This document shows positions 6,520-52,538 of a stretch of DNA of 64,000 bases, piece after piece (position 1 is the stretch's first letter; the number at the start of each line of letters is the position of its first letter). The position numbers were made by a program, and so were the translations under genes. Location: contig KE159818.1 in the NCBI GenBank assembly GCA_000403495.2, positions 62,001-126,000 on the forward strand, written 5' to 3'. This DNA is from Lachnospiraceae bacterium 10-1. GTDB taxonomy: Bacteria > Bacillota > Clostridia > Lachnospirales > Lachnospiraceae. The notes below the pieces were generated by a model. That model saw nothing but the letters and a program-made list of their open reading frames with translations, was not told the DNA's origin and did not search any database.

Positions 6520-6522
6520 CTA

Positions 6523-14491: not shown

Positions 14492-14539
14492 ACTAGTCCG
14501 TCATTCCTTCCATTATCCTGCAAAACTTTAGGGCGTCAT

Positions 14540-15631: not shown

Positions 15632-15678
15632 AATTCAGACCATTCCTTTCCTGCATAACCTCAGCCGGCACGGATAAT

Positions 15679-16461: not shown

Positions 16462-16526
16462 TGACTTTTCTCCCTAAATATTAAAATTGACTTATCCATA
16501 TGAACTATTGTATGAAATTCCTTCCA

Positions 16527-19817: not shown

Positions 19818-20801
19818 TTAATACAAAATATCTCCTGTCCTTATCTTACGCCGGCATTCATATTTGTCAATCAAAAGAGAACCATCTACTGTTCGAATCA
19901 CCAGCTTTTCATCAAATAAATCTATCACTTCTCCCGGTTCATATTCCGAAAAATCAATCATTTCATCAAAGGGATGGGCCTGCCAGATGATTATTTTATT
20001 CTCCTGAGCGGATTGACTTTCGCAGTTGTTCCTGTACCTGATTTCACTGTCATTTTCATTATTTTCCTTCACATAAGCGAATGCACCGGGAAAGGGCGCC
20101 GCCACACCTCTGATCAGATTATAGATTTCCCTGGTTCTTGCATGAAAATCCACTTTTCCATCTACTTCTGTGCGCTTGTTATACCAGGAATCAAAATCTT
20201 TTGACTGGGTTTTTATAGTAATTCTGTCCTCCTGATATGCCTTAAGCAGCTTTTTAATCAGGTTCTTGGAACAAATCATATTTTTATACTGTGCTGTGCG
20301 GATATCATCATGGGCAGTAATAGAAAACATTTCCGTGGCAAACACATTAGGACTGTCCGCCTTTTCATCATAGCGGAACAAATTCAAATTAAATCGGGTG
20401 TCTCCAAGAATAATAGACCAGTTTAAAGGCGACCGCCCACGTCCAAAGGGCAGATAACCGCAGTTTCCATGAAAACCATAAATACCAAGTTTAAACTTTT
20501 CCAACACAGAAGGGGGGATCAGCCGCTGCCAGCCCATAGAAATTCCTATGTCAAATTCGTTTTCATCAAGGAAGCCCTGTGTCTTTTCATCTGTTAAAAA
20601 ATAACTGTCAGCCTCGTGTACAGGAATTCCATACTTTTCGGTAAGCACAGACAATCCCTTATATCCGGAAACCTGATTTTTCTTCGTCACCTCCGGACTG
20701 ATGGTGATAACCAGATCTACCGGGCAGATTGTTTCCTGTATAAAACTTACAATATTTTCAGAAGTATCCTTTACTCCAAAGACCACCACTTTATATTTCA
20801 T
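19818..20801 (-). CDS. Sugar N-formyltransferase-like protein
   Basis: A ~327-residue member of the methionyl-tRNA formyltransferase superfamily. The N-terminal Rossmann part (YKVVVFGVKD) is followed by GFHGNCGYLPFGRGRSPLNW (~109-128) and an ADSPNVFATE block with the conserved Asp (~149); the C-terminal ~70 residues form an OB-like tail. Relatives such as VioF or the ArnA N-domain formylate amino groups of nucleotide-linked 4-amino sugars. His is kept, but the Asn of the usual NxH pair appears to be Gly. Substrates could come from the WecE-type or PglE-type aminotransferases here. An upstream in-frame ATG at 20846 also has a ribosome site. Confidence 0.7.
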   Translation of the reverse strand: MKYKVVVFGVKDTSENIVSFIQETICPVDLVITISPEVTKKNQVSGYKGLSVLTEKYGIPVHEADSYFLTDEKTQGFLDENEFDIGISMGWQRLIPPSVLEKFKLGIYGFHGNCGYLPFGRGRSPLNWSIILGDTRFNLNLFRYDEKADSPNVFATEMFSITAHDDIRTAQYKNMICSKNLIKKLLKAYQEDRITIKTQSKDFDSWYNKRTEVDGKVDFHARTREIYNLIRGVAAPFPGAFAYVKENNENDSEIRYRNNCESQSAQENKIIIWQAHPFDEMIDFSEYEPGEVIDLFDEKLVIRTVDGSLLIDKYECRRKIRTGDILY

Positions 20802-20826
20802 AGTCGTTTTATCCTTATTTACAAAA

Positions 20827-21744
20827 CTATTGTAAGAAATGTTCATACAAATAATCCTGCATGTTCACATATTCCTGCACTCTGTTATAATTATCTAAAA
20901 CTCCATCAAGTCTTGCTTCGTATTCTTCTTTCGTGCACTGCCTTATCGCCCCAAGCGCAACTTCCAAATCAGCATTTTTTAGCAAAATCATTCCTTCCGG
21001 ATTAAAGAACTGGGAAATCTTACGTGCTCCTAAATAGACCGGAATTGTCTGTGCCGCAAAACAGCTTGTCAAGCGCTCGGAAAAATAATAATCTGAAATA
21101 TCATTTTCAATAATAATTGAAAAACGGAAACGGTCAAGGCTTTCATCCACACTTTGAATATAAGAACCCCCGTCAAATTTTCCAAAGGTATGGGCAAGAC
21201 GGTCTTTTTTACATCTTCTGGCCAGTTCCAGGCGAAACTGGTGCAGAGTACACATAACTTTATCAGAGCATAGAATTGACAAATCTTCTTCTTTTTTCTT
21301 ATAAAGATCCTCTTTCATTTTCTGGTTCCAGATCCCTGCCGCAATAGGATAGAATCTGGCATTTTCAATCTCATTTAGTATTTTTTCATCATAAGTGAAA
21401 ATATAACGAAATTCTTTTTCCAGTCCCTTATGCTTATAAAACACTTCATAATCTTTAGGAGCAATCACTCTTGATTCCGTCAGCATTCCATACTTAACCA
21501 CAGGTTTTCCCAAGGTATGGGGCATCTCCCTGCCCCCATAAAAGTGCGTATCCAGTCCATAATTATATCTGTCCCAGAAAAAATATTTTCCCTCATGTCC
21601 AAAAGGAGCATGCTGGCTGTGTCTGTTGCGGATAAAATAAGTCTCAAGAAGCCTCCCATCCGCATTATAAATTTGGGGCATAGTATTGGTAATATGATAG
21701 TCTCTGGCAATCTGCAGCTTATATCTGCCAATCTTAAACTCCAT
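20827..21744 (-). CDS. GT10-like (alpha-1,3/4-fucosyltransferase family) protein
   Basis: A 305-residue protein. The C-terminal half has the GT10 signature region: FSIIIENDISDYYFSERL (~217-234) followed by TIPVYLGARKISQFFNPEGM (~243-262), matching the family pattern FxxAFENS...YVTEK...GTIPIYWG...FNP. GT10 enzymes transfer fucose to GlcNAc or glucose using GDP-fucose, as in Lewis-type antigens. With the GT11 genes this suggests fucose-like decoration. The N-terminal half is not recognisable. AAAGGAG 7 bases before the ATG. Confidence 0.7.
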   Translation of the reverse strand: MEFKIGRYKLQIARDYHITNTMPQIYNADGRLLETYFIRNRHSQHAPFGHEGKYFFWDRYNYGLDTHFYGGREMPHTLGKPVVKYGMLTESRVIAPKDYEVFYKHKGLEKEFRYIFTYDEKILNEIENARFYPIAAGIWNQKMKEDLYKKKEEDLSILCSDKVMCTLHQFRLELARRCKKDRLAHTFGKFDGGSYIQSVDESLDRFRFSIIIENDISDYYFSERLTSCFAAQTIPVYLGARKISQFFNPEGMILLKNADLEVALGAIRQCTKEEYEARLDGVLDNYNRVQEYVNMQDYLYEHFLQ

Positions 21745-21787: not shown

Positions 21788-22765
21788 TTATGCCAGATTT
21801 TCCTTATACCAGTCGATTGCCAAATTAATTCCTTTTTCAAAATCATATTCAGGATCATATCCTAAAAGTTCTTTTGCCTTGCTAATGTCCGCATTTGAAT
21901 CTCTGATATCTCCTGCACGATTTGGTCCGAAATTAGGCTCTACCTCTTTTCCAAGAGCTTTGCAAAGATCATGATATACATCTATCAAATATTCTCTTCC
22001 ACCTGCACCGATATTAAAGGCTTCTCCTGCTGCCTCAGAAGGCGCCAGACATGCCTTTAAGTTTGCTTCGATTACATTGTCAATATAAGTAAAGTCTCTG
22101 GACTGTCTGCCATCCCCGTTAATGGTAGGCACCTCTCCATGCATCAGCTGCTTAATGAACTTAGGGATCACCGCTGCATACATTCCTTCAGGATCCTGTC
22201 GCCGCCCAAATACATTGAAATATCTCATTCCATAAGTATCCAGTCCATACAAAACCTTATAAAGCCTTCCATATTCCTCGTCCACTTTCTTGGTAAGCGC
22301 ATAGGGGGAGAGAACCTTTCCTTCTGCCCCTTCCTTTTTGGGGAGCACCGGATGATCTCCATACACGGAAGAGCTGGATGCATAGACAAACTTCTTCACT
22401 CCGTTTTGCCTGGATGCCTCCATCATATTCAGCGTACCCCGAATATTGATTTCCTCATAAAGAAGAGGCATTTCAATACTTCTGGGAACGCTTCCCCATG
22501 CAGCCTGATTCAGCACATAGCTTACGCCTTTCGCAGCTTCTAAGCAGGTATCAAGTTCCCTGATGTCTCCTTTTATAAATGTAAAATCAGGATTTGCTGT
22601 TAAAGGTTCAATATTTTCATATTTTCCGGTAGAAAGATTATCCAGGCACCGAACTTTATAGCCCATATCCAGAATTGCCTCACATAAATTAGAGCCAATA
22701 AATCCTGCGCCTCCCGTCACAAGAAATATACTGTTTTCATCAAATTTCAAATCTTTGTATCCCAT
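21788..22765 (-). CDS. UDP-N-acetylglucosamine 4-epimerase (WbpP/TviC type)
   Basis: A 325-residue extended SDR enzyme. VTGGAGFIGSNL (~16-27) is the NAD motif, SSSSVYGD (~129-136) and SPYALTKKVDEEY hold the catalytic Ser and YxxxK, and FNVFGRRQDPEGMYAAVIPKF with DGRQSRDFTYIDN are typical of the WbpP group acting on N-acetylated UDP-hexosamines. It interconverts UDP-GlcNAc and UDP-GalNAc, or the acid forms. It sits directly downstream of the UDP-sugar dehydrogenase gene, the pair seen in Vi and O6 antigen loci, so UDP-GalNAcA is a likely product. Confidence 0.88.
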   Translation of the reverse strand: MGYKDLKFDENSIFLVTGGAGFIGSNLCEAILDMGYKVRCLDNLSTGKYENIEPLTANPDFTFIKGDIRELDTCLEAAKGVSYVLNQAAWGSVPRSIEMPLLYEEINIRGTLNMMEASRQNGVKKFVYASSSSVYGDHPVLPKKEGAEGKVLSPYALTKKVDEEYGRLYKVLYGLDTYGMRYFNVFGRRQDPEGMYAAVIPKFIKQLMHGEVPTINGDGRQSRDFTYIDNVIEANLKACLAPSEAAGEAFNIGAGGREYLIDVYHDLCKALGKEVEPNFGPNRAGDIRDSNADISKAKELLGYDPEYDFEKGINLAIDWYKENLA

Positions 22766-22796: not shown

Positions 22797-24113
22797 TTAC
22801 AGTCTCCAGTAAATATAATCCTCTGTCAGATATTCATTTCTGTCAAACAGCCCCTTAATATCCATGAATACTTTCTTTTTATGGGCAGGATTATAAAATC
22901 TGTTTATATCCTCTTTCTTCAATTCCAAAAATTGTGTATGCGCCACTGCCACAATCACAGCATCCACATCCTTTACCGCCTCCATGCCATCAAAGGTCAC
23001 ACCATACAGCCGCTTTGCCTCCTCTGCATCAGCAGCAGGATCTACTACTATGGGTGTAATTCCATACTCACCAAGCTCTTTATAAATATCAATCACCTTG
23101 GTATTTCTGGTATCAGGACAGTTTTCTTTAAAGGTAAACCCTAAAATTGCTACCTTGGCATGTTTTACCGGAATATCTGCCTTAATTAAGTTTTTCACCA
23201 TAGATTCGGCCACATATCTTCCCATGTCATCATTGATACGACGCCCGGAAAGTATAATCTGGGAGTGGTATCCAAGTTCCTCCGCCTTGTACGTCAGGTA
23301 GTATGGATCAACCCCAATGCAATGGCCTCCTACCAGGCCGGGATAAAACTTAAGGAAATTCCATTTGGTTCCTGCCGCCTCAAGCACAGATTTGGTGTCA
23401 ATGCCCATGCGGTTGAAAATAATAGATAATTCATTCATAAATGCAATGTTAATATCCCTCTGGCTGTTTTCAATTACCTTGGCCGCTTCCGCCACCTTAA
23501 TGGACTGGGCACGATAAACTCCCGCCTCTACCACAAGTTCATATACCTTAGCCACAGTATCCAAGGTTTCCTCATCCATACCGGAAACAATCTTTACAAT
23601 AGTTTCAAGGCGGTGTACCTTATCTCCGGGGTTAATTCTCTCCGGAGAATAACCAATCTTAAAATCCACACCACACTTAAGCCCTGATTCTTTTTCAAGG
23701 ATGGGTACGCAAATATCTTCTGTCACTCCCGGGTATACTGTAGACTCAAATACCACTACGGAACCTTTGGTAAGATTCTGACCTAATATCCTGCTTGCTC
23801 CCTCTACAGGGGTAAGATCCGGCGTGTGGTCATCATTTACCGGGGTGGGAACCGCAACAATGTGGAATTTTGCCTCTTTTAGTTTAGAAGGATCGGCTGT
23901 AAACTCCACTTTTGTATTTTTGATTACTTCATTTCCCACTTCATTGGTGGGATCGATTCCGTTTTTGTAAAGTTCTATCTTTTTCTCATTTAAATCAAAA
24001 CCCACTACTTTGATTTTTCTGGCAAAAGCTACTGCAATGGGCATTCCCACATACCCAAGTCCCACTAATGATAATTTCTCTTCCCCACTTAACAGTTTTT
24101 CATATAAATCCAT
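22797..24113 (-). CDS. UDP-N-acetylhexosamine 6-dehydrogenase (TviB/WbpO type)
   Basis: A ~438-residue nucleotide-sugar dehydrogenase. LSLVGLGYVGMPIAVAF (~15-31) binds NAD, KKIELYKNGIDPTNEV marks the TviB/WbpO subgroup, and VGGHCIGVDPYYL (~266-278) contains the catalytic Cys; a C-terminal UDP-binding domain starts near KVAILGFTFKENCPDTRN. Two NAD-dependent oxidations give UDP-HexNAc uronic acid. The product is a plausible substrate for the two amidotransferases downstream. The ATG at 24113 (AAGGA ten bases ahead) is preferred to 24134. Confidence 0.88.
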   Translation of the reverse strand: MDLYEKLLSGEEKLSLVGLGYVGMPIAVAFARKIKVVGFDLNEKKIELYKNGIDPTNEVGNEVIKNTKVEFTADPSKLKEAKFHIVAVPTPVNDDHTPDLTPVEGASRILGQNLTKGSVVVFESTVYPGVTEDICVPILEKESGLKCGVDFKIGYSPERINPGDKVHRLETIVKIVSGMDEETLDTVAKVYELVVEAGVYRAQSIKVAEAAKVIENSQRDINIAFMNELSIIFNRMGIDTKSVLEAAGTKWNFLKFYPGLVGGHCIGVDPYYLTYKAEELGYHSQIILSGRRINDDMGRYVAESMVKNLIKADIPVKHAKVAILGFTFKENCPDTRNTKVIDIYKELGEYGITPIVVDPAADAEEAKRLYGVTFDGMEAVKDVDAVIVAVAHTQFLELKKEDINRFYNPAHKKKVFMDIKGLFDRNEYLTEDYIYWRL

Positions 24114-24161
24114 GATCTTCCATTCCTTTCTCAAATAAATCTTTTATCTACCAGTAATATG

Positions 24162-25250
24162 TCAACTACTATGAAGCATAGCCTGTATTTCTTCCATATA
24201 ATCCAATACCACCTTTTTCCGGTCAAATTCCTTTTCCATCTTTTCTCTGGCTCTTTGTCCCATTTTAGCTCTTTCTTCTTGGGAAAGCTTTAGAAATTCC
24301 TTTAATGCCCTAATCAGATCTTCACTGCTTTTCGGCTTACACCCAAATCCTGTAACACCTTCTTCAAAAATCTCCCTGCATCCACTGACATTGGTAGCTA
24401 TCACAGGTCTTCCCGCAGCAGATGCCTCCATCAGCACATTACTCATTCCCTCATGGTAAGTGGGGAGTACCAGTGCAGAACAGTTTTTAAGGTATTCATG
24501 TACATCAGGATCAAATCCAAGCAGCCTGATCACCCCTCGTTTTTCAAATTCGTCCAGCTTGTCCTGATAATCTTCGTCACAATATCCAAGCAGTTCAAAT
24601 AATACTTTAGGACCTGCCAGTTGTTCCGCCGCTTCTAACAGCTCCTCAATGCCTTTTTCCCTCATCATTCTTCCCACAAAGAGAAAATGCACTTCATCCC
24701 TTTCGGGATAAGCCTCAAAAGAGTGGCGTTCCAGATTCACCCCCGAACCTTTTACAAGGCGGCTGCTTTTTCCTTTAATATGATATAAATCAAAAATTTT
24801 CCAGTTTTCTTGGTTTTGAAAAAAAACACAGGTACATTTTTTTAATCCCATACGGTACATACTGACAATTACTTTAAGGAGAATCCCCTTTTTTTGAAAG
24901 GTGCTTCCAAGCCCTGTCACAGTGGAAATATAGGGTACTTTCATATATCCGCAGCAAAATCCACCATATATATTGGGTTTGATGGTATAAGTCAGAACCA
25001 GATCAGGCTTTTCAGCTTTTAACAGCTTTCGGTAGGCTTTTATCAGCTTCATATCCTCTATGGGATTGACTCCTCTTCTATTGATGGGAGTATCCACTAC
25101 TTTACAGCCTTCTTCCGACAACTCTTTTGTACGCACCTGATCAGGAATACTTACCGTCACCTGATATTCTTCCAAAAGCTTTTTGATTAGTTCATTTCGA
25201 AAATCATACAGCCCTCCGGAAGAATTTGAAAGAATCAATATCTTTTTCAT
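24162..25250 (-). CDS. Family 4 glycosyltransferase, PglA/CapM-like
   Basis: A 362-residue GT-B enzyme. ILSNSSGGLYDFRNELI (~5-21) at the N-terminus, FVGRMMREKGIEELLEAA (~191-208) and PTYHEGMSNVLMEASAAGRPVI (EX7E) are typical of PglA, which adds the second sugar to undecaprenyl-diphosphate-bacillosamine. Its place three bases after the ATP-grasp gene and near the PglC, PglE and PglF-like genes matches such a role. Donor probably UDP-HexNAc, by analogy only. Confidence 0.82.
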   Translation of the reverse strand: MKKILILSNSSGGLYDFRNELIKKLLEEYQVTVSIPDQVRTKELSEEGCKVVDTPINRRGVNPIEDMKLIKAYRKLLKAEKPDLVLTYTIKPNIYGGFCCGYMKVPYISTVTGLGSTFQKKGILLKVIVSMYRMGLKKCTCVFFQNQENWKIFDLYHIKGKSSRLVKGSGVNLERHSFEAYPERDEVHFLFVGRMMREKGIEELLEAAEQLAGPKVLFELLGYCDEDYQDKLDEFEKRGVIRLLGFDPDVHEYLKNCSALVLPTYHEGMSNVLMEASAAGRPVIATNVSGCREIFEEGVTGFGCKPKSSEDLIRALKEFLKLSQEERAKMGQRAREKMEKEFDRKKVVLDYMEEIQAMLHSS

Positions 25251-25253
25251 AGG

Positions 25254-26234
25254 TCAGATAATTTCCTCTTCTTTCAGATTCACAATACCTATCTCATTAT
25301 ATTTCATCATACATATCCCCTCAGGATACGCTCCAATGGAAACTGGATTAGCCTTTCCCGAAAGATTATTTAGTACCTGGGAAGGCATATCCACACCACT
25401 TTCATAAGCGTGGGGATATCCACCTCCAAATCGTGGATTTACTTCAGAAATATAATAAATTCCGTTTATCTTAAATATATCAATATCTATCATACCACAA
25501 AAGCCACATTTTTCCACAAAATTTTGCAGCATGGAAAAAAGCGCTTCATCTTTAAATGATACGGACTTATCTGTCTCTCCCGCCCGCATCTTAATCTTTT
25601 TTTTCACAAAAATACAGGTACATTTTCCGGATATCATGTCAATATAAACATCAGCCCCATATTCCTGTCCGTCCATATATTCCTGAATCATAAGATCATC
25701 ATATAAATCAAACAGCACATCTATTTCTGACATCGTTGTCACTTTATTAATATTAATGCTTGCGCTCCCCTTTACCGGCTTTGCAAATACGGGAAAAGAA
25801 ATCTCTCCTTTTTCAAGTGCTTCCTTAAATGCATTCTTTTCCACAAAACAATTTGCAGTAGGAATTCCCATTTCACACAGCATCTGATACATTTTGTATT
25901 TGTCAAAACAAGTTTCCACCAATTCATAGGGGGAAATAACAGGCGTTGTCCCTACTGCCAGAAACTTTTCTTTTTCTTTGGCAAGCAGGGAAAGCTCCGG
26001 ATCGATCAAAGAAAAGGCACCATCTATTTTTTCCTTCTTACAAATGTCTAAAATCACATCCAGATACTCTGGCGCATTGATTCTTGGCACCAGATAAAAC
26101 TTGTCAGCGTCATAAACCGCAGGTGCTAAATTAGAACAATCTGTTGCAATCACTCTGCCGGTATCTCCCACTGCCTTTTTAAAATACTGCACCACCTTAT
26201 TTCTGGTTCCCGCACTTAAAATTAAAATGTTCAT
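25254..26234 (-). CDS. ATP-grasp ligase of the glycan locus
   Basis: A 326-residue ATP-grasp protein. N-terminal ILSAGTRNKVVQYF preATP-grasp fold, FPVFAKPVKGSASINI (~147-162) as the phosphate-binding loop, MIQEYMDGQEYGADVYID (~181-198) and FKINGIYYISEVNPRFGGGYP (~258-278) with the Mg-binding Glu and Asn. Often mis-annotated as carbamoyl-phosphate synthase because of similarity to that fold. Such ligases join a carboxylate to an amine through an acyl phosphate. It lies between a PLP enzyme and the PglA-like GT4, so an amino-acyl or similar modification of a 4-amino sugar is a reasonable but unproven role. Confidence 0.75.
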   Translation of the reverse strand: MNILILSAGTRNKVVQYFKKAVGDTGRVIATDCSNLAPAVYDADKFYLVPRINAPEYLDVILDICKKEKIDGAFSLIDPELSLLAKEKEKFLAVGTTPVISPYELVETCFDKYKMYQMLCEMGIPTANCFVEKNAFKEALEKGEISFPVFAKPVKGSASININKVTTMSEIDVLFDLYDDLMIQEYMDGQEYGADVYIDMISGKCTCIFVKKKIKMRAGETDKSVSFKDEALFSMLQNFVEKCGFCGMIDIDIFKINGIYYISEVNPRFGGGYPHAYESGVDMPSQVLNNLSGKANPVSIGAYPEGICMMKYNEIGIVNLKEEEII

Positions 26235-26247
26235 TCATATACCCATC

Positions 26248-26265
26248 TGCGCGTTGCGGCGCGCA
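26248..26265 (-). repeat. GC-rich hairpin in the gap before the ATP-grasp gene
   Basis: Perfect 6-base arms TGCGCG/CGCGCA around a 6-base loop, in a 63-base gap of otherwise AT-rich sequence. No T-run follows on either strand, so it is not an obvious terminator. It could modulate translation of the gene starting at 26234, which has a weak ribosome site. Confidence 0.5.
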
Positions 26266-26297
26266 CTTAAATCAATAGGTTAAATACGCCTTTTTAT

Positions 26298-27335
26298 TCA
26301 ACCCTGTATCTTCAAATTATCAAAAAAAAGCGGTGTGCCTCCTGTATGGATAAAAAGCACTTTCTTTCCTTCCACCCGTTTATCTTCAAGAAACTTACGC
26401 ATTCCCCAAAAAGCTTTTCCCACATAGGTGGTATCCATTGGTATTCCATCCTGTAACATAATGTTATCTATAACAGACTTTACTTCATTGTTATATTGTC
26501 CATATCCCCCCAGCCGGTACCTGTCAGTGAATACTAAGGCTTCTTCCTTGTAAAGGGTATCAAATTTTTCGCCTAAATAGTCCCTGATGCTGTCTTTTAC
26601 CACTTCCCTGCCTCTATTTTCTTCCCTTGCAATACTGATTCCTACAATCTGTGTTCTGGCATTTTTATCCGCTCTCTCCCCTTTTTTGCTTGAAAAGACC
26701 GCTTTCTTCTCTATCGATGCTGTCTGAATTTCTTCGCGATTCAGTAAAGAGAGGAGCTGGCCGCAAACCAGACCTGCCTGAGTTGCCCCTGTTCCGGAAG
26801 CGTGAAAAATATAGTCAAAGTAAATTCCATTTTCTTTTTCCCAGCTTTCTATTTCCTGATAAGCCTTTACATAGCTCTCCGTACCCGGATTACCATGTCC
26901 TCCGCCTGTGATAAAGTATGGATTTTTTCCTTCTATTTCATATGCCCGTATCCGGCTTTCTATGGTTTCTGAAACCTTGTTTACCGGGCAGGTTTCTATC
27001 ACTGCACCAAACTGTTCCACCAATTTTGTATTATAAAGAATTTCCCTGTTTTCCTGAGGAGAAATAATATGGCAGGAAAGCCCCATTGCCGCCGCCATAT
27101 TGGCGATAATCCGGCAATGATTGGAACTATTGCTGCCATAAGTCATAATCACATCCGTATCCGAATTTTTAATTTCCTTGTAAAATTCCGCTGCTTTTCT
27201 GGCTTTGTTTCCGCCAAAACTAAAAGGAATTAAATCATCCCTTTTTATATAAAAGCAGTTATTCCCATAGCTCCCTGACAATGGCACAAGAGGAGTTTCT
27301 TCAAGAGGTTTTTCAAACAAAGCAATTCTTTTCAT
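26298..27335 (-). CDS. PLP-dependent enzyme, ACC deaminase/D-cysteine desulfhydrase family
   Basis: A ~345-residue fold-type II PLP enzyme. FSFGGNKARKAAEF (~38-51) contains the likely PLP lysine, TYGSNSSNHCRIIANMAAAMG (~65-85) the Asn/Ser phosphate-contact and SxxNH block, HASGTGATQAGLV (~178-190) a glycine-rich cofactor loop and FIHTGGTPLFF the C-terminal end. The family deaminates ACC or D-cysteine or acts on related amino acids. It starts one base after the PglC-like stop, with GGAAAAGG six bases before the ATG, so it is tightly coupled to the Pgl-like genes. Such an enzyme is unusual in a glycan operon; it may form or racemise an amino acid used by the ATP-grasp ligase. Confidence 0.75.
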   Translation of the reverse strand: MKRIALFEKPLEETPLVPLSGSYGNNCFYIKRDDLIPFSFGGNKARKAAEFYKEIKNSDTDVIMTYGSNSSNHCRIIANMAAAMGLSCHIISPQENREILYNTKLVEQFGAVIETCPVNKVSETIESRIRAYEIEGKNPYFITGGGHGNPGTESYVKAYQEIESWEKENGIYFDYIFHASGTGATQAGLVCGQLLSLLNREEIQTASIEKKAVFSSKKGERADKNARTQIVGISIAREENRGREVVKDSIRDYLGEKFDTLYKEEALVFTDRYRLGGYGQYNNEVKSVIDNIMLQDGIPMDTTYVGKAFWGMRKFLEDKRVEGKKVLFIHTGGTPLFFDNLKIQG

Positions 27336-27336
27336 C

Positions 27337-27963
27337 TCAGCCTTTTTCCTTTCCTGCTTTCCGGTATACATCAAAGTCAGCCACTGTCTGATCCGCACCA
27401 GAAAGAGTTCCTGTTCTTTTCAAAACCTTTCCCACTGTCATCCCAAGAACCTTTAAGTCCATAAGCAGGCTGCATTTTTCCACATACTCCAAATCATATG
27501 CAAAGCGGTCCTCCCAGCCTAAAGCATTGCGCCCGTTTACTTGTGCAAGTCCCGTAAGCCCCGGTCTTACATCATGCCTGTGCCTTTCTTCTTCCGTATA
27601 ATAAGGCAGATACTTAACCAGCAGCGGTCTTGGCCCAATCAGACTCATATCTCCTTTTAAAATATTAAAAAGCTCAGGCAGTTCATCCAGGCTGGTAGAG
27701 CGAAGCAGCTTCCCAAACCGGGTAAGTCTTACCTCATCAGGGAGAAGCTGTCCATTTTCATCTCTTTCATCCGTCATGCTGCGGAACTTATAAAGTTTAA
27801 AAATCTTTTCCTTTTTTCCGGGGCGCTCCTGGGTAAACAAAACCGGCTTTCCCAGCTTGCACCGGATCAGCACCCATAAAACAAGATAAACTGGTGAAAG
27901 AACAATAATTCCACATAGAGATAATGCCATATCAAGCATTCGTTTTGCACCATTTTTATACAT
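27337..27963 (-). CDS. PglC/EpsL-like initiating phosphoglycosyl transferase
   Basis: A ~208-residue monotopic phosphoglycosyl transferase. One re-entrant hydrophobic segment (~10-30), VLFTQERPGKKEKIFKLYKFRSM, then the catalytic acidic pair in LDELPELFN (~91-99) and GDMSLIGPRPLL (~102-113), with VRPGLTGLAQVNGRN later. It moves a phospho-amino-sugar, in the family usually UDP-diNAcBac or a related sugar, to undecaprenyl phosphate. GGAAGGG 8 bases before the ATG at 27963 decides the start. It follows the PglE-like gene by 24 bases. Confidence 0.88.
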   Translation of the reverse strand: MYKNGAKRMLDMALSLCGIIVLSPVYLVLWVLIRCKLGKPVLFTQERPGKKEKIFKLYKFRSMTDERDENGQLLPDEVRLTRFGKLLRSTSLDELPELFNILKGDMSLIGPRPLLVKYLPYYTEEERHRHDVRPGLTGLAQVNGRNALGWEDRFAYDLEYVEKCSLLMDLKVLGMTVGKVLKRTGTLSGADQTVADFDVYRKAGKEKG

Positions 27964-27987
27964 TGCCCTATCCCTTCCCGTGAACAC

Positions 27988-29139
27988 TTATCTTCCAAAA
28001 CATCCCCGTATAATCCTAATAATCAGCTCCATATCTTCTTTTGTGTTTTTGATGTCGCTGGGCAGGCAGAGTCCTCTGTTAAATACATCTGCTGCAACAT
28101 CTGCTCCCTGATTTCCTTTTCCCTTGCTTCCCTTTGCGGTAACGAAGTCGCATTCTGCAAACACTGGCTGCAAATGCATTGGTTTCCAGACAGGGCGGGA
28201 CTCAATGTTATGGTCTGCCAATGCATCCATAATGTTATCAGGGGTTACCGGACATCCTTCTTTTATGATCATGCCGGTGAGCCAGCAATTTGCATCTCCA
28301 TCTTTATTTAAAGGATTTAGTCCGATTTCGGGAATATCTGCAAAAGCTTCCTTATACTGTTTGTAAATTTCCTTCTTAAGGGCCTTATGCTCCTCTAAAT
28401 GGAGCAACTGTCCCCGGCCGATTCCGGCAGTAATATTGCTCATTCTGTAATTATATCCGATTTGGGAATGTTGATAATGCCGGGCTGCATCCCTTGCCTG
28501 CGTGGCCAGAAAAGTAGCTTTTTGTGTGATTTCCTCTTCTTTGGAAACCAGCATTCCACCGCCTGAAGTGGTAATAATCTTATTTCCATTAAAAGAATAA
28601 ATTCCTATTTTTCCAAAAGTGCCTGTATGTTTTCCTTTATATGTGCTGCTTAAGGATTCTGCCGCATCCTCAATCAGCGGAACTCCGTGCTCATCGCAAA
28701 TTTCAATAATTTCATCAAGCTTTGCAGGCGTTCCATATAAGTGAACCACGATCACAGCCTTGGGGTTAGGGTAGATTTCAAAGCCCCTTTTGAGCGCTTC
28801 CGGATCCATATTCCAGGTATCTGTCTCCGAATCAATAAATACTGGAGTTGCTTTTTCATATACCACCGGATTACAGGTGGCGCTAAAGGTTAACGAAGGA
28901 ACAAATACCACGTCCCCTTCCCCTATTCCCAAGACGCGGAGGGCAAGATGTATTGCCGCTGTTCCGGCACTTAATGCAGATGCATGGGCAATTCCCACAT
29001 AATCTGCCAGCTCCTTCTCAAATGCATTTACATTAGGACCAAGAGGCGCCACCCAGTTGGTGTCAAATGCCTCCCTGATAAACTCCTGTTCTTCTCCATG
29101 CATGGTAGGGGAAGATAAATAAATTTTTTTGTCTGCCAT
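27988..29139 (-). CDS. PglE-like UDP-4-keto-sugar aminotransferase
   Basis: A 383-residue DegT/DnrJ family enzyme. SAGTAAIHLALRVLGI (~57-72), the PLP N1-binding EDAAES (~157-162) and SFNGNKIITTSGGGML (~182-197) with the PLP lysine are canonical. The N-terminal DTNWVAPLGPNVNAFE block is typical of PglE and EpsN, which put an amino group on C4 of UDP-4-keto-6-deoxy-GlcNAc. It lies between the PglF-like and PglC-like genes. Confidence 0.88.
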   Translation of the reverse strand: MADKKIYLSSPTMHGEEQEFIREAFDTNWVAPLGPNVNAFEKELADYVGIAHASALSAGTAAIHLALRVLGIGEGDVVFVPSLTFSATCNPVVYEKATPVFIDSETDTWNMDPEALKRGFEIYPNPKAVIVVHLYGTPAKLDEIIEICDEHGVPLIEDAAESLSSTYKGKHTGTFGKIGIYSFNGNKIITTSGGGMLVSKEEEITQKATFLATQARDAARHYQHSQIGYNYRMSNITAGIGRGQLLHLEEHKALKKEIYKQYKEAFADIPEIGLNPLNKDGDANCWLTGMIIKEGCPVTPDNIMDALADHNIESRPVWKPMHLQPVFAECDFVTAKGSKGKGNQGADVAADVFNRGLCLPSDIKNTKEDMELIIRIIRGCFGR

Positions 29140-29154
29140 TTCTTTGCTCCTCCA

Positions 29155-31047
29155 TTACTCTTCATTGTAATGATAAGTAGATACAATTTCTCTGATCAAA
29201 GGTCTGATATCATTACTTTCATTTTTTGATTCTTCCTTCAATGCCTTAAGCTGAACAAAAAATCTGCTTTCATCTATCTCAATAGGTTTCCCGATATGGA
29301 TCAGTTTATTTGCCGTCTCCGTCATTCCCTCTTCCGCCATCAAAAGCTCCTCATAAAGCTTTTCTCCGGGACGCAGGCCGGTAAACTCAATCTTAATATC
29401 TTCACCTACACGATAGCCGGACAACCGAATCAGATTTTTAGCCAGATCCAGTATCTTTACCGGTTTTCCCATGTCCAAAACAAATATCTCACCGCCTTTT
29501 GCATAGGCACCCGCCTGCAGCACTAAAGATACTGCTTCCGGTATGGTCATAAAATATCTGATAATATCAGGGTGGGTTACTGTCACCGGTCCGCCTGCCA
29601 TGATCTGCTTTTTAAATAAGGGAATCACACTTCCGTTACTGCCCAGCACATTTCCAAACCTGACAGCCACAAATTCCGTATCATAATGCTTATTAAATGT
29701 CTGAATAATCATTTCACAAATCCGCTTGCTGGCTCCCATAATATTGGTAGGGTTCACTGCCTTATCGGTAGAGATCATAACAAATCTCTGTACGCCATTC
29801 ATGGCAGCTGCCTGAGCAGTTTTCCATGTGCCGAATACATTATTTTTAACTGCCTCATTGGGACTTGCTTCCATTAAAGGTACATGCTTATGAGCCGCCG
29901 CATGGTACACAATATCAGGCTTATAGCTTTCAAATATCCAGTTCATCCGGTTGGTATTTCTGACAGAAGCAATCAGCACCACTAAAGAAAGTTCAGGATA
30001 TTTGGTAATCAGCTCCTGCTGTACATCATAAACACTGTTTTCATAAATATCCAGTATAATAAGCTGAGCCGGTCTATGGCTTGCAATCTGCCGGCATAAC
30101 TCGCTTCCAATAGAACCGCCGCCGCCTGTGACCAGCACTTTTTTCCCTTTAACATAACCAAGAATTGAATCCAAATCCACCTCAATGGGTTCTCTTCCTA
30201 ATAAATCCTCCACTTCCACATCCCGCAGCTTGCTGACGCTGACTTCACCATTAACCAGCTGATACATCCCTGGCAGGGAACGGAGTTTGCAGCTTGTCTC
30301 TTTACAGATGTCTAAAATTTCAGAAAGCTCACTTCTTGTAATAGAAGGCATTGCTACAATAATTTCATCAATTCCAAAAATATCGGCACATTCAATAATT
30401 TTATCCCTGCCGCCGACAACCTTGATCCCCTGAATAAATCTTCCCCATTTTCCCTTGTCATCATCAATAATACAGCGAATGACCATAGTGGAAAAATTAC
30501 TGTTTACAATCTCTTTTATAATGATATTTGCAGCTTCTCCCGCCCCAATTACCATAACGGAAATGTTATTATTTTTATTTTGCTGCTTATGCTTTAAGCT
30601 CCTGAAAAACCGGTAGGAAAACCGGCTGACAAAAATAAAGCTGATCAGCATAAATACATAAAGAAAATAGTAACTGCCTGGAACTGCCTGCTGTCCCTGG
30701 GTTTTGAAAAACTGAATGCCTATGCTGTAGCAAACTGCAGAAATCACACTGGAAATCACCAGATTCTGCAGTTCCGTTTCACCAGCAAATGCCCAAAGAC
30801 TATGGTACATCCTGAAAATATAAAGCACAATTAATGTGATTAAAATATTCACAGGCAGAAACCGGTTGATCGGGCCGATAAAGTACGGGGGTATTTCCGA
30901 CATATCAAAGCTGTAACGCATAAGCAGCGCTAAATAGCTTGCTGCAATTACACTGATAATATCGTAAATAATCAGTGCGGTTCTTCTGTATAATAGTTTT
31001 ACATTAAATACTTTTTTTTCTCTTTTTTCTACTTTGCTCATGGCCAA
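29155..31047 (-). CDS. PglF/CapD-like membrane UDP-GlcNAc 4,6-dehydratase
   Basis: A 630-residue protein with four N-terminal membrane segments (~25-150), a first Rossmann domain (VMVIGAGEAANIII, ~164) and a C-terminal SDR domain: VLVTGGGGSIGSEL (~308-321), YHAAAHKHVPLME, ISTDKAVNPTNIMGASKR (~418-435) with the Met-x3-Lys variant of YxxxK seen in this group. Converts UDP-GlcNAc to UDP-4-keto-6-deoxy-GlcNAc with retention at C5, feeding the PglE-like enzyme. It is not PseB, which is a small soluble C5-inverting dehydratase. Confidence 0.88.
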   Translation of the reverse strand: MAMSKVEKREKKVFNVKLLYRRTALIIYDIISVIAASYLALLMRYSFDMSEIPPYFIGPINRFLPVNILITLIVLYIFRMYHSLWAFAGETELQNLVISSVISAVCYSIGIQFFKTQGQQAVPGSYYFLYVFMLISFIFVSRFSYRFFRSLKHKQQNKNNNISVMVIGAGEAANIIIKEIVNSNFSTMVIRCIIDDDKGKWGRFIQGIKVVGGRDKIIECADIFGIDEIIVAMPSITRSELSEILDICKETSCKLRSLPGMYQLVNGEVSVSKLRDVEVEDLLGREPIEVDLDSILGYVKGKKVLVTGGGGSIGSELCRQIASHRPAQLIILDIYENSVYDVQQELITKYPELSLVVLIASVRNTNRMNWIFESYKPDIVYHAAAHKHVPLMEASPNEAVKNNVFGTWKTAQAAAMNGVQRFVMISTDKAVNPTNIMGASKRICEMIIQTFNKHYDTEFVAVRFGNVLGSNGSVIPLFKKQIMAGGPVTVTHPDIIRYFMTIPEAVSLVLQAGAYAKGGEIFVLDMGKPVKILDLAKNLIRLSGYRVGEDIKIEFTGLRPGEKLYEELLMAEEGMTETANKLIHIGKPIEIDESRFFVQLKALKEESKNESNDIRPLIREIVSTYHYNEE

Positions 31048-33615: not shown

Positions 33616-33630
33616 AATTAACCCCCATAT

Positions 33631-33655
33631 TGCCGCAGCCTGCAAATTTGCGGCA
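33631..33655 (-). promoter_or_regulatory. Hairpin in the leader of the O-antigen-ligase-like gene
   Basis: Perfect 7-base arms TGCCGCA/TGCGGCA with an 11-base loop, ending ~9 bases before the GGGGG ribosome site. It overlaps a GCAAATTTGC palindrome. No T-run follows, so it is more likely a translation or stability element than a terminator. Confidence 0.5.
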
Positions 33656-33705
33656 GCACAAACTTGTCAAGTGAAACACATCCACTCTTTTTTAAACGCA
33701 TGGGT

Positions 33706-33734
33706 AGTATAACACAGTTATTTCCAATTATCAA
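33706..33734 (-). promoter_or_regulatory. Internal sigma-A-type promoter before the O-antigen-ligase-like gene
   Basis: On the minus strand TTGATA (33734-33729), 17 bases, then TATACT (33711-33706). It overlaps the last codons of the DUF6020-like gene and precedes a ~90-base leader. It could drive the O-antigen-ligase-like gene and the PglF-E-C set independently. Confidence 0.6.
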
Positions 33735-36508: not shown

Positions 36509-36564
36509 CCAAAACCTCCATTAATAATAACTCCTGTAAAGCCTGAATTTTTTCCTTCCTGCCT

Positions 36565-37107
36565 TCACAATTTTTGATTAATTACCGCCATATAAATTAC
36601 ATCTTTATAAGTCCCTTCAAGATATACTTCATCCTTTAAATAAGCTTCCTGAACAAATCCTGCCTTTTCATAACTTTTATAGGCCTGTTTATTATCGGCC
36701 AGCAGCCGGAGCATCAACTTATGAAGCCCTAACTGTTCAAACGCATAATGAATAATAATGCGGGCTGCCTGAGTTCCATATCCTTTCCCCAGGGCATCCT
36801 TTTCTCCTATAAAAATTCCATATTCCGCTTTTTTATGAACCCTGTCTATATCTCTAAGGTAAACACTTCCTATAGGATGTCCGCCTTTGGCAGATATGAT
36901 AAACTGAACCGCCTTTCCGGTATCTATCATGTTCTTTTTCCACTGTTGGTGGCCTTCTTTAGAAAAGGATTTTTGGTAAATAAAATTCCTGCGCACAAAA
37001 TCACTGTTCCGCCATCTTATAATATTTTCCGTATCCTCCTCATTCATCAGGCGGAGAGTAATATTCTCTCCCTCCAAAACCGGATTTTTTTCACTCATAT
37101 TTTCCAT
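36565..37107 (-). CDS. GNAT N-acetyltransferase, PseH/WecD-like candidate
   Basis: A ~180-residue GNAT protein. ITLRLMNEEDTENIIRWRNS (~15-34) is the RimJ/PseH-like start with the WRN block, and GKGYGTQAARIIIHYAF (~108-124) is the acetyl-CoA pyrophosphate loop. It ends with a typical NKQAYKSYEKAGF. In glycan loci these acetylate the 4-amino group of UDP- or dTDP-linked 4-amino sugars. It lies two genes from the WecE-type aminotransferase, so it may act on dTDP-Fuc4N (WecD role) or be the missing PseH of the pseudaminate path. AGGAG before the ATG at 37107 sets the start. Confidence 0.75.
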   Translation of the reverse strand: MENMSEKNPVLEGENITLRLMNEEDTENIIRWRNSDFVRRNFIYQKSFSKEGHQQWKKNMIDTGKAVQFIISAKGGHPIGSVYLRDIDRVHKKAEYGIFIGEKDALGKGYGTQAARIIIHYAFEQLGLHKLMLRLLADNKQAYKSYEKAGFVQEAYLKDEVYLEGTYKDVIYMAVINQKL

Positions 37108-37130
37108 AAGCACTCCTAAATGTCTGCCGG

Positions 37131-38942
37131 TTATAAGCTGCGCACTTCATATACCTCAAAAGCACCGGCCACCTTGTCCACCAAAGTAATTTTCACCGGC
37201 GTATCATGGCCTTCATAATAATCGGAAAGCCACTCCATGTCCTCACTTATTTTTCGTACAAAGTAAACATTGTTCTGATCTTTAAGAGCCTGCTCCATAT
37301 TCCCAATGCCAAAAGACTCCAGCTTTTTCCTCTGTATGGGGCTTTTACATGCCCATCCTCCCATAATATCATAATTATCCAGGGAATTATCAACATTTTC
37401 AAACATTTTTTCCGAATACTCCACTGTGGAATATACATCTATCAGATAAAAATTATCTGCATTTTGTTCCCTCGCAAAGTACTGATACAGCTCTATATAA
37501 GGCGCATTTATTTCTTCCCTTACCTTCTGCTGCATTCCTGTCAGCTTTATGCTTGAAGGCAGAATCACAACTGCCAGCACCCCAAATACTGCTGCCAAGA
37601 GAAATCCCGACAATCTTTTCGTTTTCCGGAACATAAGTATTTTCCAGTGGGTAAACGCCATAGCCGCTAAGATACAAAGTTCCATCAAATATAAGGAATG
37701 GGTAATCCGCTCCGGATCACGCCCCCGCATTAAAATATACATCCAAAGAAGCGTTCTGACTGCAAAAAGAAAAATCAGCTTCCATAAAACTTCCAATCCG
37801 TTTTTTACATATCCTTTTTTTCCTTCTTCCTGAGGAACGCCGCATTTTATCCTTCTGGGCAGTGCCAGTAAAAATACCGCAAAATATCCTGCAATCACCG
37901 CATAGTTCCATGGATAATCGCTTCCTGTATCTAATGGACCGTGGGTAAAACGATAAACATAAAATTTAAGACTTTCAGAAACTCTTTGCATAAAAGGATC
38001 TTGGGCACTTTTATGCATCCCTGCATATTCTGCAATCTGTCCAACTAATTTTTCGTCAATTTCCTCATCCATGCCGAAATTATAATTATCAAAGAGAATT
38101 TTTTCGCTGCCGCTTAATCCAATTTCCTCATAAAAATCCTGATTTTCCTCATAGGGCGGAATTTCCTGAAAATCATAAAGCTCTGTTCTGTTGTTGAAAA
38201 AAGTGGTAAATGTTTTCCATTCTTCAGAGCCATAGGCAATCATGTGTGTTGCTTGTCCTATCAATATTCCTGCCAGTATCAAGCCGATCACAGTAAGATA
38301 TTTTATCCCATGTTCTTTGGTAAATATCTTTTTTTCACTTCCCCATTTAGCCACACCAGCCACACAGATCATGGGAAGAACCAAAAGCAGCATTTCAGAA
38401 CGAATCAAATAAGCAGCAAATACCAGAAAGACTGCCGGAATATTTTTCTTAATAAATGCTCTGGCGGAAAGTGTAATATCTGTTGTGTAAAACATAAATG
38501 CGGCTGTGGCGCCTAACAGGGTACAGGTCACCGTATACTGGACAAAAATTAAATGCTCAAGAAATAATCCGCCAAAAAGCAAAACTTCCGTCAGGGCAAT
38601 AAAAATCTTTCCACAAAAGGTTTCCACAAATGAAAGGCTTCTTTGCAAAATCAGAAAAAGGCAGCCAAAGTGGCATGCACACAGAAAAATTCCATACCAG
38701 GGGAGGCTTCCGGCAATCCTGTATAACAAACTGATCCCTGCACTGACAAGCCACAGCATCTGAATATTATGACCTTCCGGTGTTCCGGTGTAGGCTCCTG
38801 CCAAAATATCCTTCATCAGCACATCATCATTTAAATCATAATAATAGTCAAAATTAATTCCTGCGAAAATCCCCAATAAAGCCACAGTCAAAAGCGCAAT
38901 TATCCAGTTTTCGTTTTTTTTAAGGATACTTTTAAATTCCAT
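37131..38942 (-). CDS. Polytopic membrane protein, possible GT-C-type enzyme
   Basis: A 603-residue protein with ~11-12 hydrophobic segments in the first ~460 residues and a ~130-residue soluble C-terminal part. The first extracytoplasmic loop has acid clusters (FDYYYDLNDDVLMKDI, ~31-46), like the catalytic acids of GT-C glycosyltransferases. I do not recognise a named family. Its start overlaps the WecE-type stop by 11 bases, so translation is coupled. It may be a glycosyltransferase or another envelope glycan-modifying protein. Confidence 0.55.
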   Translation of the reverse strand: MEFKSILKKNENWIIALLTVALLGIFAGINFDYYYDLNDDVLMKDILAGAYTGTPEGHNIQMLWLVSAGISLLYRIAGSLPWYGIFLCACHFGCLFLILQRSLSFVETFCGKIFIALTEVLLFGGLFLEHLIFVQYTVTCTLLGATAAFMFYTTDITLSARAFIKKNIPAVFLVFAAYLIRSEMLLLVLPMICVAGVAKWGSEKKIFTKEHGIKYLTVIGLILAGILIGQATHMIAYGSEEWKTFTTFFNNRTELYDFQEIPPYEENQDFYEEIGLSGSEKILFDNYNFGMDEEIDEKLVGQIAEYAGMHKSAQDPFMQRVSESLKFYVYRFTHGPLDTGSDYPWNYAVIAGYFAVFLLALPRRIKCGVPQEEGKKGYVKNGLEVLWKLIFLFAVRTLLWMYILMRGRDPERITHSLYLMELCILAAMAFTHWKILMFRKTKRLSGFLLAAVFGVLAVVILPSSIKLTGMQQKVREEINAPYIELYQYFAREQNADNFYLIDVYSTVEYSEKMFENVDNSLDNYDIMGGWACKSPIQRKKLESFGIGNMEQALKDQNNVYFVRKISEDMEWLSDYYEGHDTPVKITLVDKVAGAFEVYEVRSL

Positions 38943-40062
38943 AAAATTCCTTTACTTTTCCTGCAATATACTCTGTTTGTTCTTCCGTAAGCTGATAAAA
39001 CATCGGCAGACGCAAAAGCCGCTCACTTTCCTTTGTGGTATATTTGTCCTCTCCATGAAACCGGCCGAATTTTATTCCCGCCGGTGCGGAATGCAGAGGA
39101 ACATAGTGAAACACAGCAAGAATGTCATTTTTCTTAAGAAAATCTATCAGCCGGCTTCTCTCCTCCAAATCCTTTGTCTTAAAATAAAACATATGTGCAT
39201 TGTGTACACAGCCATCCGGCACATATGGAAGCTCTATCTTTCCTGTCTTGGCAAGGGGTGTTAAAAGTTCATAGTACTGACTCCACCTGGCAAGACGAGA
39301 ATGATTAATCTCATCTGCCGCATCAAACTGAGCGGAAAGATATGCCGCATTGATCTCACTGGGAAGATAAGAAGATCCGAAATTCATCCAGCGGTACTTG
39401 TCCACCTGGCCCCTGAAATATTTACTTCTGTCAGTTCCTTTTTCTCTTAATATCTCCGCATCTTCAATGTACTTAGAATCACGGATTAAAAGGGCACCAC
39501 CCTCGCCCATACTGAAATTCTTAGTCTCATGAAAGCTGTAGCATCCAAAATCACCAATGGTTCCCAGCGGCCTGCCTTTATAAGTGCACATAATTGCCTG
39601 TGCGGCGTCCTCCACCACCATAAGGTGATGTCTGTCTGCAATTTCCATAATTTTATCCATCTCACAAGCCACGCCTGCATAGTGTACCACAAAGATTGCC
39701 TTTGTTTTTTCCGTAACCGCATCCTCAATCAGATTTTCATCAAGATTCATAGTGTCCGGTCTGATATCAACAAACACTGCTTTTGCCCCTCTTAGCACAA
39801 ACGCATCGGCGGTAGATACAAATGTATAAGAAGGAAGAATTACCTCATCCCCCTCCTTCAAATCACACAAAAGCGCCGCCATTTCAAGTGCATGGGTGCA
39901 GGAGGTGGTGAGAAGGCATTTTGTCGTGCCGGTGGTTCTCTCCAGATATTCACTGCACTTTTTGGTAAATTCTCCGTCCCCGCAGATATGCATGTTTTCT
40001 ATTGCTTTTTCTACATTTTTTATTTCTCCTCCTACGTAAGGAGGTACATTAAATCTGATCAT
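38932..40062 (-). CDS. wecE: WecE/RffA-type dTDP-4-keto-6-deoxyglucose aminotransferase
   Basis: A ~376-residue DegT family enzyme very like WecE: SYTFVSTADAFVLRGAKAVFVDIRPDTMN (~78-106), HYAGVACEMD (~126-135), EDAAQ, SFHETKNFSMGEGGALL (~176-192, PLP lysine in ETKN), REKGTDRS and FRGQVDKYRWMNFGSSYLPSE. WecE makes dTDP-4-amino-4,6-dideoxy-D-galactose (Fuc4N). The dTDP-glucose genes rmlA and rmlB are not in the window. The product could be acetylated by the GNAT at 36565-37107 or formylated by 19818-20801. GAAAGGTG before the ATG at 40062 sets the start. Confidence 0.85.
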   Translation of the reverse strand: MIRFNVPPYVGGEIKNVEKAIENMHICGDGEFTKKCSEYLERTTGTTKCLLTTSCTHALEMAALLCDLKEGDEVILPSYTFVSTADAFVLRGAKAVFVDIRPDTMNLDENLIEDAVTEKTKAIFVVHYAGVACEMDKIMEIADRHHLMVVEDAAQAIMCTYKGRPLGTIGDFGCYSFHETKNFSMGEGGALLIRDSKYIEDAEILREKGTDRSKYFRGQVDKYRWMNFGSSYLPSEINAAYLSAQFDAADEINHSRLARWSQYYELLTPLAKTGKIELPYVPDGCVHNAHMFYFKTKDLEERSRLIDFLKKNDILAVFHYVPLHSAPAGIKFGRFHGEDKYTTKESERLLRLPMFYQLTEEQTEYIAGKVKEFYGI

Positions 40063-40083
40063 ATGATCCCACACCTTTCACTA

Positions 40084-46020: not shown

Positions 46021-46039
46021 CCAAAAGAAAGGCATTTTC

Positions 46040-48259: not shown

Positions 48260-48274
48260 AATTTGAACCCCAGA

Positions 48275-48293
48275 GCCGAATCTGATATTCGGC
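48275..48293 (+). repeat. Intergenic hairpin between the PseG fusion and pseF
   Basis: Perfect 7-base arms GCCGAAT/ATTCGGC around the loop CTGAT, in a 76-base gap. No T-run follows, so it is more likely an mRNA-stability element than a terminator. Confidence 0.5.
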
Positions 48294-48335
48294 CCGCATG
48301 CCTGCGTAAAAAATGTTTTGACATGGAGGATTAAT

Positions 48336-49025: not shown

Positions 49026-49040
49026 AATGGAGGATTCTTA

Positions 49041-50093: not shown

Positions 50094-50165
50094 AATTTCC
50101 TCCAGCATTTACCAAAAGCCATCCCTGTACAAAGTGCTTCCAAGCAAAAGAAAGGCCAAATAATA

Positions 50166-51368: not shown

Positions 51369-51379
51369 ACTTATGCATA

Positions 51380-51436
51380 TAATTGTGAAACCAATAAATA
51401 GTCCGAGTATTCACACCATATTATCTTTCACAATTA
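51380..51436 (+). repeat. 11-base inverted repeat before the sialyltransferase-like gene
   Basis: TAATTGTGAAA (51380-51390) and TTTCACAATTA (51426-51436) are perfect complements separated by 35 bases, ending just before the AGAAAGG ribosome site of the gene at 51449. It could be an mRNA hairpin, a regulator site or a small invertible element; only the symmetry is seen. Confidence 0.6.
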
Positions 51437-51448
51437 GAAAGGAATCCC

Positions 51449-52525: not shown

Positions 52526-52538
52526 GCTTGGCTTTCAC

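Follow-up and report, generated by a model that had tools for sequence, protein, structure and literature searches.

The window analysed here is a 64,000-nucleotide stretch of the genome of Lachnospiraceae bacterium 10-1 (contig KE159818.1, positions 62,001 to 126,000). In it, the pathway genes pglF, pglE and pglC are followed by a gene for a pyridoxal phosphate (PLP) enzyme of the PALP family and a gene for an ATP-grasp ligase, in the place where other loci carry the acetyltransferase gene pglD. In our best explanation, to which we assign a probability of about 0.55, the ATP-grasp ligase acylates the 4-amino sugar in PglD's place with an acid supplied by the PLP enzyme, hereafter PALP. PglF and PglE would produce UDP-2-acetamido-4-amino-2,4,6-trideoxyhexose. 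The ATP-grasp ligase would activate a carboxylic acid with ATP and join it to the 4-amino group, which is the PglD step with a different acyl group. The acid would come from PALP and would most likely be a non-standard amino acid, possibly of D configuration and formed by racemisation or beta-replacement. PglC would then transfer the sugar phosphate, now acylated, to undecaprenyl phosphate, and a GT4 glycosyltransferase would extend it.

The two parts of this explanation differ in strength. That the ATP-grasp ligase acylates the 4-amino group, in PglD's stead, has good comparative support from the loci described below, while supply of an amino acid by PALP is plausible from the sequences. A reading made earlier from the sequence only had proposed an amino-acid-type acyl group made by the PLP enzyme and joined by the ATP-grasp ligase. 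The placing of the ligase at the PglD position is borne out by the counts over 67 loci; an amino acid made by PALP as the acyl group is the less secure part.

The gene cluster of the window

The order pglF-pglE-pglC-PALP-ATP-grasp-GT4, as given by the sequence-only reading, is confirmed, with all six genes on the minus strand. The first gene (29155..31047) encodes a PglF-like membrane UDP-GlcNAc 4,6-dehydratase with Polysacc_synt_2 and CoA_binding_3 domains. It is followed by a PglE/LegC-type DegT aminotransferase (27988..29139; TIGR04181, 377.7 bits, below the cut-off of 420), which presumably forms the UDP-4-amino sugar, and by a PglC-like phosphoglycosyl transferase (27337..27987; PF02397, 213 bits). 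These three enzymes, which cover the first steps of a di-N-acetylbacillosamine (diNAcBac)-type pathway, all match their Pfam families, although the dehydratase and the aminotransferase remain under the NCBIfam curated cut-offs. PALP (26298..27335; PF00291 family) belongs to a distant subfamily of the D-cysteine desulfhydrase / 1-aminocyclopropane-1-carboxylate (ACC) deaminase superfamily. Its open reading frame (ORF) spans 26298-27398, with the likely start at the ATG at 27335, 1 base past the pglC stop. The ATP-grasp ligase (25254..26234) and the GT4 glycosyltransferase (24162..25250, a family match located where PglA would be and presumably adding the second sugar) complete the cluster. Calculated from the coordinates, the successive intergenic gaps are 15, 0, 1, 63 and 3 bases; the last three are the small gaps around the inserted pair that had been noted before.

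The window contains no PglD, as the earlier reading had stated. In the genome (4.57 Mb, 24 contigs), PF17836 (PglD_N) gives matches only at two places on another contig, and none of the 37 places matched by PF00132 (Hexapep), at E up to 1, lies inside the window. As evidence that would overturn the proposal, the earlier reading had named a PglD homologue at another place in the genome that is needed for the glycan. Two PglD homologues are indeed present, on contig C11, in what looks like a gene set for legionaminic acid with a flagellin-like ORF close by (gene names in this stretch were assigned by eye, and the profiles scanned there were PF17836 and PF00132). In the same genome, locus L259 has four tandem LicD-like ORFs at 12989-17141 (by eye), with the legionaminic-like set on one side and a flagellin-like ORF on the other.

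PglD and ATP-grasp genes in the slot 3' of pglC

Loci were collected through pglE, without regard to PALP, from a sample of the order (295 genomes, 42 matched) and one of the phylum (398 genomes, 50 matched), giving 92 loci with the window. In 71 of these pglC is near pglE (21 were left out), and 67 have at least 1.2 kb of sequence 3' of pglC (4 were left out); the 67 include the window, from which the query was taken. The slot was defined as the 4.5 kb 3' of pglC. Slot and neighbour counts are based on tblastn or hidden Markov model (HMM) scans, because ORF picking sometimes chose antisense ORFs; some of the loci scanned also went into building the HMMs.

The slot contains PglD only in 29 loci, an ATP-grasp only in 22, both in 1 and neither in 15. 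This mutual exclusion is significant (Fisher one-sided p 5e-7) and persists when one locus per genus is taken (53 genera, 500 draws; p 2e-5 to 5e-4). L186, in which an ATP-grasp and a HAD gene lie 5' of pglC, was scored as neither. The exchange is seen most directly in L171, where pglE-pglC-PglD-GT4-UGDH-SDR stands against pglE-pglC-PALP-ATP-grasp-GT4-UGDH-SDR in the window (UGDH, UDP-glucose dehydrogenase). From the exclusion, the ATP-grasp ligase most likely acylates the 4-amino group instead of PglD. PglD, GNAT and FemAB enzymes acylate amines. As the PglB2 ATP-grasp of Neisseria, discussed at the end, is an amine acylator too, the occupants of the slot point to the 4-amino group as the acceptor.

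Among the 71 loci, the slot ATP-grasp is alone in 10, with a HAD gene in 6 and with PALP in 2, and in one case each it is accompanied by a GNAT and PALP, a GNAT, three FemAB-like genes or PglD. A second ATP-grasp type is found alone once and with a FemAB gene once, and FemAB-like genes occupy the slot alone in 4 loci. FemAB-like genes, alone or with an ATP-grasp, were seen in L168, L227, L249, L256 and, three in tandem, L230; tRNA-dependent aminoacylation of the sugar is a possible role. Pairs of an ATP-grasp and a HAD phosphatase gene occur near pglC in L167, L205, L225, L233, L248, L252 and L186, and by analogy these may follow a glycerate route like that of PglB2.

Recurrence of the gene pair

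A second set of loci was selected on PALP itself, as the best 80 of 395 relatives from a scan of named genomes; neighbours were counted in those loci with enough flank. The sequence-only reading had suggested looking for the same gene order in other genomes, and it is found there: pglC lies at most 1.5 kb upstream of PALP in 73 of 75 loci and an ATP-grasp at most 3 kb downstream in 75 of 78 (flank at least 1 kb), with pglE within 6 kb in 55 of 62 and pglF within 9 kb in 49 of 59. This conserved order exceeds chance. PglD is absent from the slot 3' of pglC in all 80. The taxa include Lachnospiraceae, Halobacillus, Virgibacillus, Oceanobacillus, Planococcus and Peribacillus, the closest relatives among the 80 kept being Lachnospiraceae. 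Some loci are present twice (L016/L055, L017/L057, L065/L185, L073/L209 and partly L080/L189), and L192 and L204, from one genome, overlap. The distance correlation of PALP with the ATP-grasp (0.76, partial 0.52) is slightly higher than with pglC (0.71, partial 0.42); we give this no weight. In L016 a small VOC-family-like ORF (6450-6905, by eye) is inserted between pglF and pglE.

In a sample of the family (299 genomes, E 1e-30), PALP is present in 11, one of them the genome of the window itself, and was not found in the one other sampled genome of the window's genus. The ATP-grasp and PALP form a single ORF in 3 of 10 family loci, which suggests that the two enzymes serve one product. These fusions are about 700 amino acids long (L022, 8634-10742; L024, 8710-10821; L025, 9343-11514). 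Their ATP-grasp halves are closer to other subfamilies than to that of the window, and both halves could be named for L022. In L022, L023 and L024 a WecE-type aminotransferase is located near the pair, a different route to a 4-amino sugar.

The PALP and ATP-grasp proteins

PALP scores 102 to 160 bits with the eight NCBIfam models it matches, far under all their cut-offs: 118 against 429, 115 against 469 and 102 against 610 bits for D-cysteine desulfhydrase models, and 155 against 289 bits for subfamily TIGR01275. Its clade is distinct: among 299 genomes sampled from the phylum, three (the window's own included) reach about 394 bits or more, while all other matches remain at or below 212.5. The catalytic residues are conserved throughout, with Lys44, Ser71, Tyr278, Tyr304 and Thr331 invariant in 81 of 81 sequences (the 80 selected loci and the window); these are the PLP lysine, the serine of the SN motif, two tyrosines and the threonine of HTGG. 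PALP carries the PLP lysine and the SN, GYG, Y-x-GKA and HTGG motifs of D-cysteine desulfhydrase. The YEGKS and HLGG motifs of ACC deaminase (1rqx), positions which we take to decide that activity, are replaced by the D-cysteine desulfhydrase-like TYVGKA and HTGG. By these residues, the signature is that of a D-cysteine desulfhydrase rather than an ACC deaminase, in a distant subfamily. The predicted model has a mean predicted local distance difference test score (pLDDT) of 81. Around residues 197-226 the PALP of the window has an insertion of about 26 residues that is not present in the other 10 aligned rows, with pLDDT below 50 over most of it. A viral origin of PALP was considered and set aside, there being no relatives in the phage records searched or in viral contigs.

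The ATP-grasp ligase is a PRK12767.1-5 protein (NF009406), with 505.9 bits against a curated cut-off of 271. Its predicted model has a mean pLDDT of 94, and its best match among solved folds is a PRK12767 ATP-grasp from Exiguobacterium (PDB entry 2pn1), with a TM-score of 0.88/0.94 and 44% identity. Two amino-acid ligases are among the fold matches, PylC at rank 5 and RizA at rank 15.

The window ligase belongs to loop class A, defined by the motif RxGETDK (in the window, KMRAGETDKSVSF). So do 76 of the 79 ATP-grasps from the PALP-selected loci, or 74 of 77 without two repeated loci; of the three exceptions, one reads RxGETEK, one is truncated at a contig end and the third is an additional ATP-grasp. 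The 23 ATP-grasps of the unselected loci are more diverse: nine are of class A, five have GGANK and no partner, and the HAD-linked ones fall outside class A in 7 of 7 cases. The partner gene thus tracks the type of ligase, which would be expected of a partner that makes the acid.

Findings that weigh against the proposed acylation

Several findings do not sit easily with this explanation. One locus, L181, holds PglD and an ATP-grasp together in the slot, and PglD-like genes are present 5' of pglC, outside the slot, in some others, such as L192, which has an ATP-grasp in the slot. PglD-like matches also occur elsewhere in 3 of the 80 PALP loci (L073, L074 and L104). The 2pn1 entry, titled as a carbamoylphosphate synthase large subunit, states no substrate, and biotin or pyruvate carboxylases make up the majority of the 50 fold matches listed. 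Six of the nine unselected class A ATP-grasps have no adjoining PALP; G263, one of these genomes, has a PALP elsewhere, and in G467 (L166) and G428 (L182), both with a class A ATP-grasp, no PALP of this clade was found. The idea that PALP always accompanies a class A ATP-grasp is thereby ruled out, and PALP is better seen as an addition to the class than as a condition of it. Finally, 26 of the 80 PALP loci have a GNAT (22), a FemAB-like gene (3) or a formyltransferase (1, L064) between pglC and PALP, and these could be the real 4-N-acyltransferases there. This weakens the idea that the pair always replaces an acyltransferase. In the window nothing intervenes between pglC and PALP, and the GNAT and the formyltransferase are farther off.

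The intervening enzymes may instead cap the amine of an amino acid that has already been added. We weakly favour such capping over direct 4-N-acylation, because amine-acylating partners go with class A ligases and not with the other classes: they accompany 3 of 9 unselected class A ATP-grasps and 0 of 14 others (tested as 3 of 9 against 0 of 12, which is two fewer than the 14 listed; p 0.06). A wider reading, which we hold tentatively and as possible rather than probable, is that a desulfhydrase-fold racemase or synthase provides a (perhaps D-) amino acid that the ATP-grasp ligase turns into aminoacyl-4-amino sugars, sometimes capped with acetyl, formyl or FemAB-added groups. The slot 3' of pglC would then be an exchangeable acyl cassette across Bacillota, filled by PglD, by an ATP-grasp alone or with PALP or HAD, or by FemAB.

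Alternative explanations

The ligase could act in the same slot and on the same acceptor with a hydroxy acid, comparable to the glycerate of PglB2, PALP being a lyase that yields a keto-acid precursor or serving another need. PglB2 offers a precedent for both acceptor and ATP-grasp, C-S lyases are among the top-scoring families of PALP, and HAD-linked ATP-grasps occupy the same slot. We nevertheless consider it unlikely: no reductase from keto to hydroxy acid was noticed in the slot, where no dedicated search for one was made, and the amine-acylating partners described above argue, weakly, for an acyl group with a free amine.

Somewhat less probable is that the GNAT of PseH type (36565..37113, minus strand), or else the ArnA-type formyltransferase (19818..20846, minus strand), acylates the 4-amino group, with PALP and the ATP-grasp modifying something else. 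The sequence-only reading had allowed that the GNAT could replace PglD. This now appears the weaker choice, even though the protein exceeds the PseH cut-off (TIGR03585, 103.3 against 93.1 bits) and a different GNAT or formyltransferase lies between pglC and PALP in some relatives, as counted above. In the window it adjoins an ArnC-like GT2, a neighbourhood common in relatives, and the presence of PseC, PseF, PseG and PseI, a pathway that uses a PseH, provides it with another home. L017, furthermore, has the F-E-C-PALP-ATP-grasp order intact, and its 20 kb contain no match to a GNAT or a formyltransferase.

Improbable, too, is amidation of a uronic acid carboxyl by the ATP-grasp ligase with a PALP-made amine, as in the Campylobacter jejuni HS:2 capsule. 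There, according to excerpts of PMC11800379, Cj1438C is a TupA-like ATP-grasp that amidates glucuronic acid, and titles cited in it place PLP enzymes and a HAD phosphatase in the capsule pathway. The window contains a fitting pair, a TviB-like nucleotide sugar dehydrogenase for uronic acid (22797..24134, minus strand; TviB 495.9 bits, cut-off 592, with NDP-sugDHase above its cut-off) and a TviC-like SDR epimerase (21788..22765, minus strand; best model TviC, 275 bits, cut-off 760). The uronic acid route fits worse because, in PALP loci with at least 8 kb on both sides, UGDH is present in only 32 of 52, against pglC in 52 and pglE (above 300 bits) in 46. UGDH also does not track slot type (8 of 19 ATP-grasp and 6 of 22 PglD loci, p 0.35), the window ligase has no TupA-like Pfam match at E 0.001, and the exclusion of PglD is left unexplained.

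The 4-amino group may remain free, as in the acetamido-amino-trideoxygalactose (AATGal) of zwitterionic polysaccharides, for which PglD is not needed, with the pair acting on another residue; pathways of the WbgX/WbgY kind do combine dehydratase, aminotransferase and phosphoglycosyl transferase without PglD, but this very improbable alternative predicts mostly empty slots, whereas only 15 of 67 hold neither family and the ATP-grasp is nearly as regular as PglD.

Other genes of the window

The formyltransferase (below NCBIfam cut-offs), a WecE-type aminotransferase of a second 4-amino sugar pathway (38932..40074, minus strand; 618.3 bits, cut-off 434.85) and a pseudaminic acid set (45935-53741) are window features absent from the earlier reading. 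The formyltransferase may possibly cap the amine of the PglE-made or the WecE sugar. The pseudaminic acid set comprises PseG (inside a 774-amino-acid ORF with an extra N-terminal part), PseF, PseI and PseC; beside it is a second ATP-grasp of a different subfamily (50166-51368). The stretch 5' of pglF (31051-40074) contains the GNAT, the ArnC-like GT2 (35540-36508) and two large membrane ORFs and is common to many relatives; the WecE gene is located beyond the GNAT and GT2, at or past the flank covered in those relatives. Two asparagine-synthase-like ORFs (8486-10360 and 12599-14491, by eye) are possible uronamide makers.

Implications

The acyl group on the first sugar can affect the antigenicity of surface glycans and enzyme specificity. 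If the proposed acylation is true, genomes would predict which commensal Firmicutes carry aminoacyl-type and which acetylated bacillosamine-like sugars, a new pair of amide ligase and PLP enzyme would be usable for glycan synthesis, and the ATP-grasp genes in such loci, whose NCBIfam name is only "carbamoyl phosphate synthase-like", would have a function.

Comparison with known systems

In Campylobacter jejuni, the pgl genes for PglF, E, D, C and A lead to di-N-acetylbacillosamine. The window has the same types of dehydratase, aminotransferase, phosphoglycosyl transferase and GT4 but no PglD, with PALP and the ATP-grasp instead. PALP shares the family match and the catalytic residues with the D-cysteine desulfhydrase / D-cysteate sulfo-lyase family, and differs from it in its scores and in the pglC gene alongside most of its relatives.

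An ATP-grasp domain amidates glucuronic acid in the C. jejuni HS:2 capsule, as excerpts of PMC11800379 describe. The likeness to Cj1438C lies in an ATP-grasp that modifies a surface sugar, with PLP enzymes in the pathway; Cj1438C is TupA-like and acts on a uronic carboxyl, while the window ligase is of the PRK12767 type and is tied to a 4-amino sugar pathway. A flagellin-modification operon of Shewanella ends in an ATP-grasp gene, a possible carboxylate-amine ligase according to its authors (excerpts of PMC3765264). Among open-licence PubMed Central (PMC) papers we found no paper on a sugar cassette of PALP and ATP-grasp, which is no proof of absence.

The closest parallel is PglB2 of Neisseria. 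In excerpts of PMC11130364, PMC6959607 and PMC4569582 it is an "ATP grasp/phosphorglycosyl-transferase" leading to a glyceramido sugar (GATDH), while PglB with an acetyltransferase leads to diNAcBac, and pglB and pglB2 are mutually exclusive. An ATP-grasp with a PglC-like enzyme there replaces the acetyltransferase acting on UDP-2-acetamido-4-amino-2,4,6-trideoxyhexose (excerpts of PMC11130364 and PMC6959607). The 67-locus counts show the same arrangement, with an ATP-grasp for an acetyltransferase beside the phosphoglycosyl transferase. Given this precedent, the swap is of a known kind. What differs is that pglC and the ATP-grasp are separate ORFs in the window, unlike the PglB2 fusion, and that a PLP enzyme is the partner of the ATP-grasp; the two ATP-grasps are likened by description, not by sequence. 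New here are the PLP partner and the stand-alone cassette.

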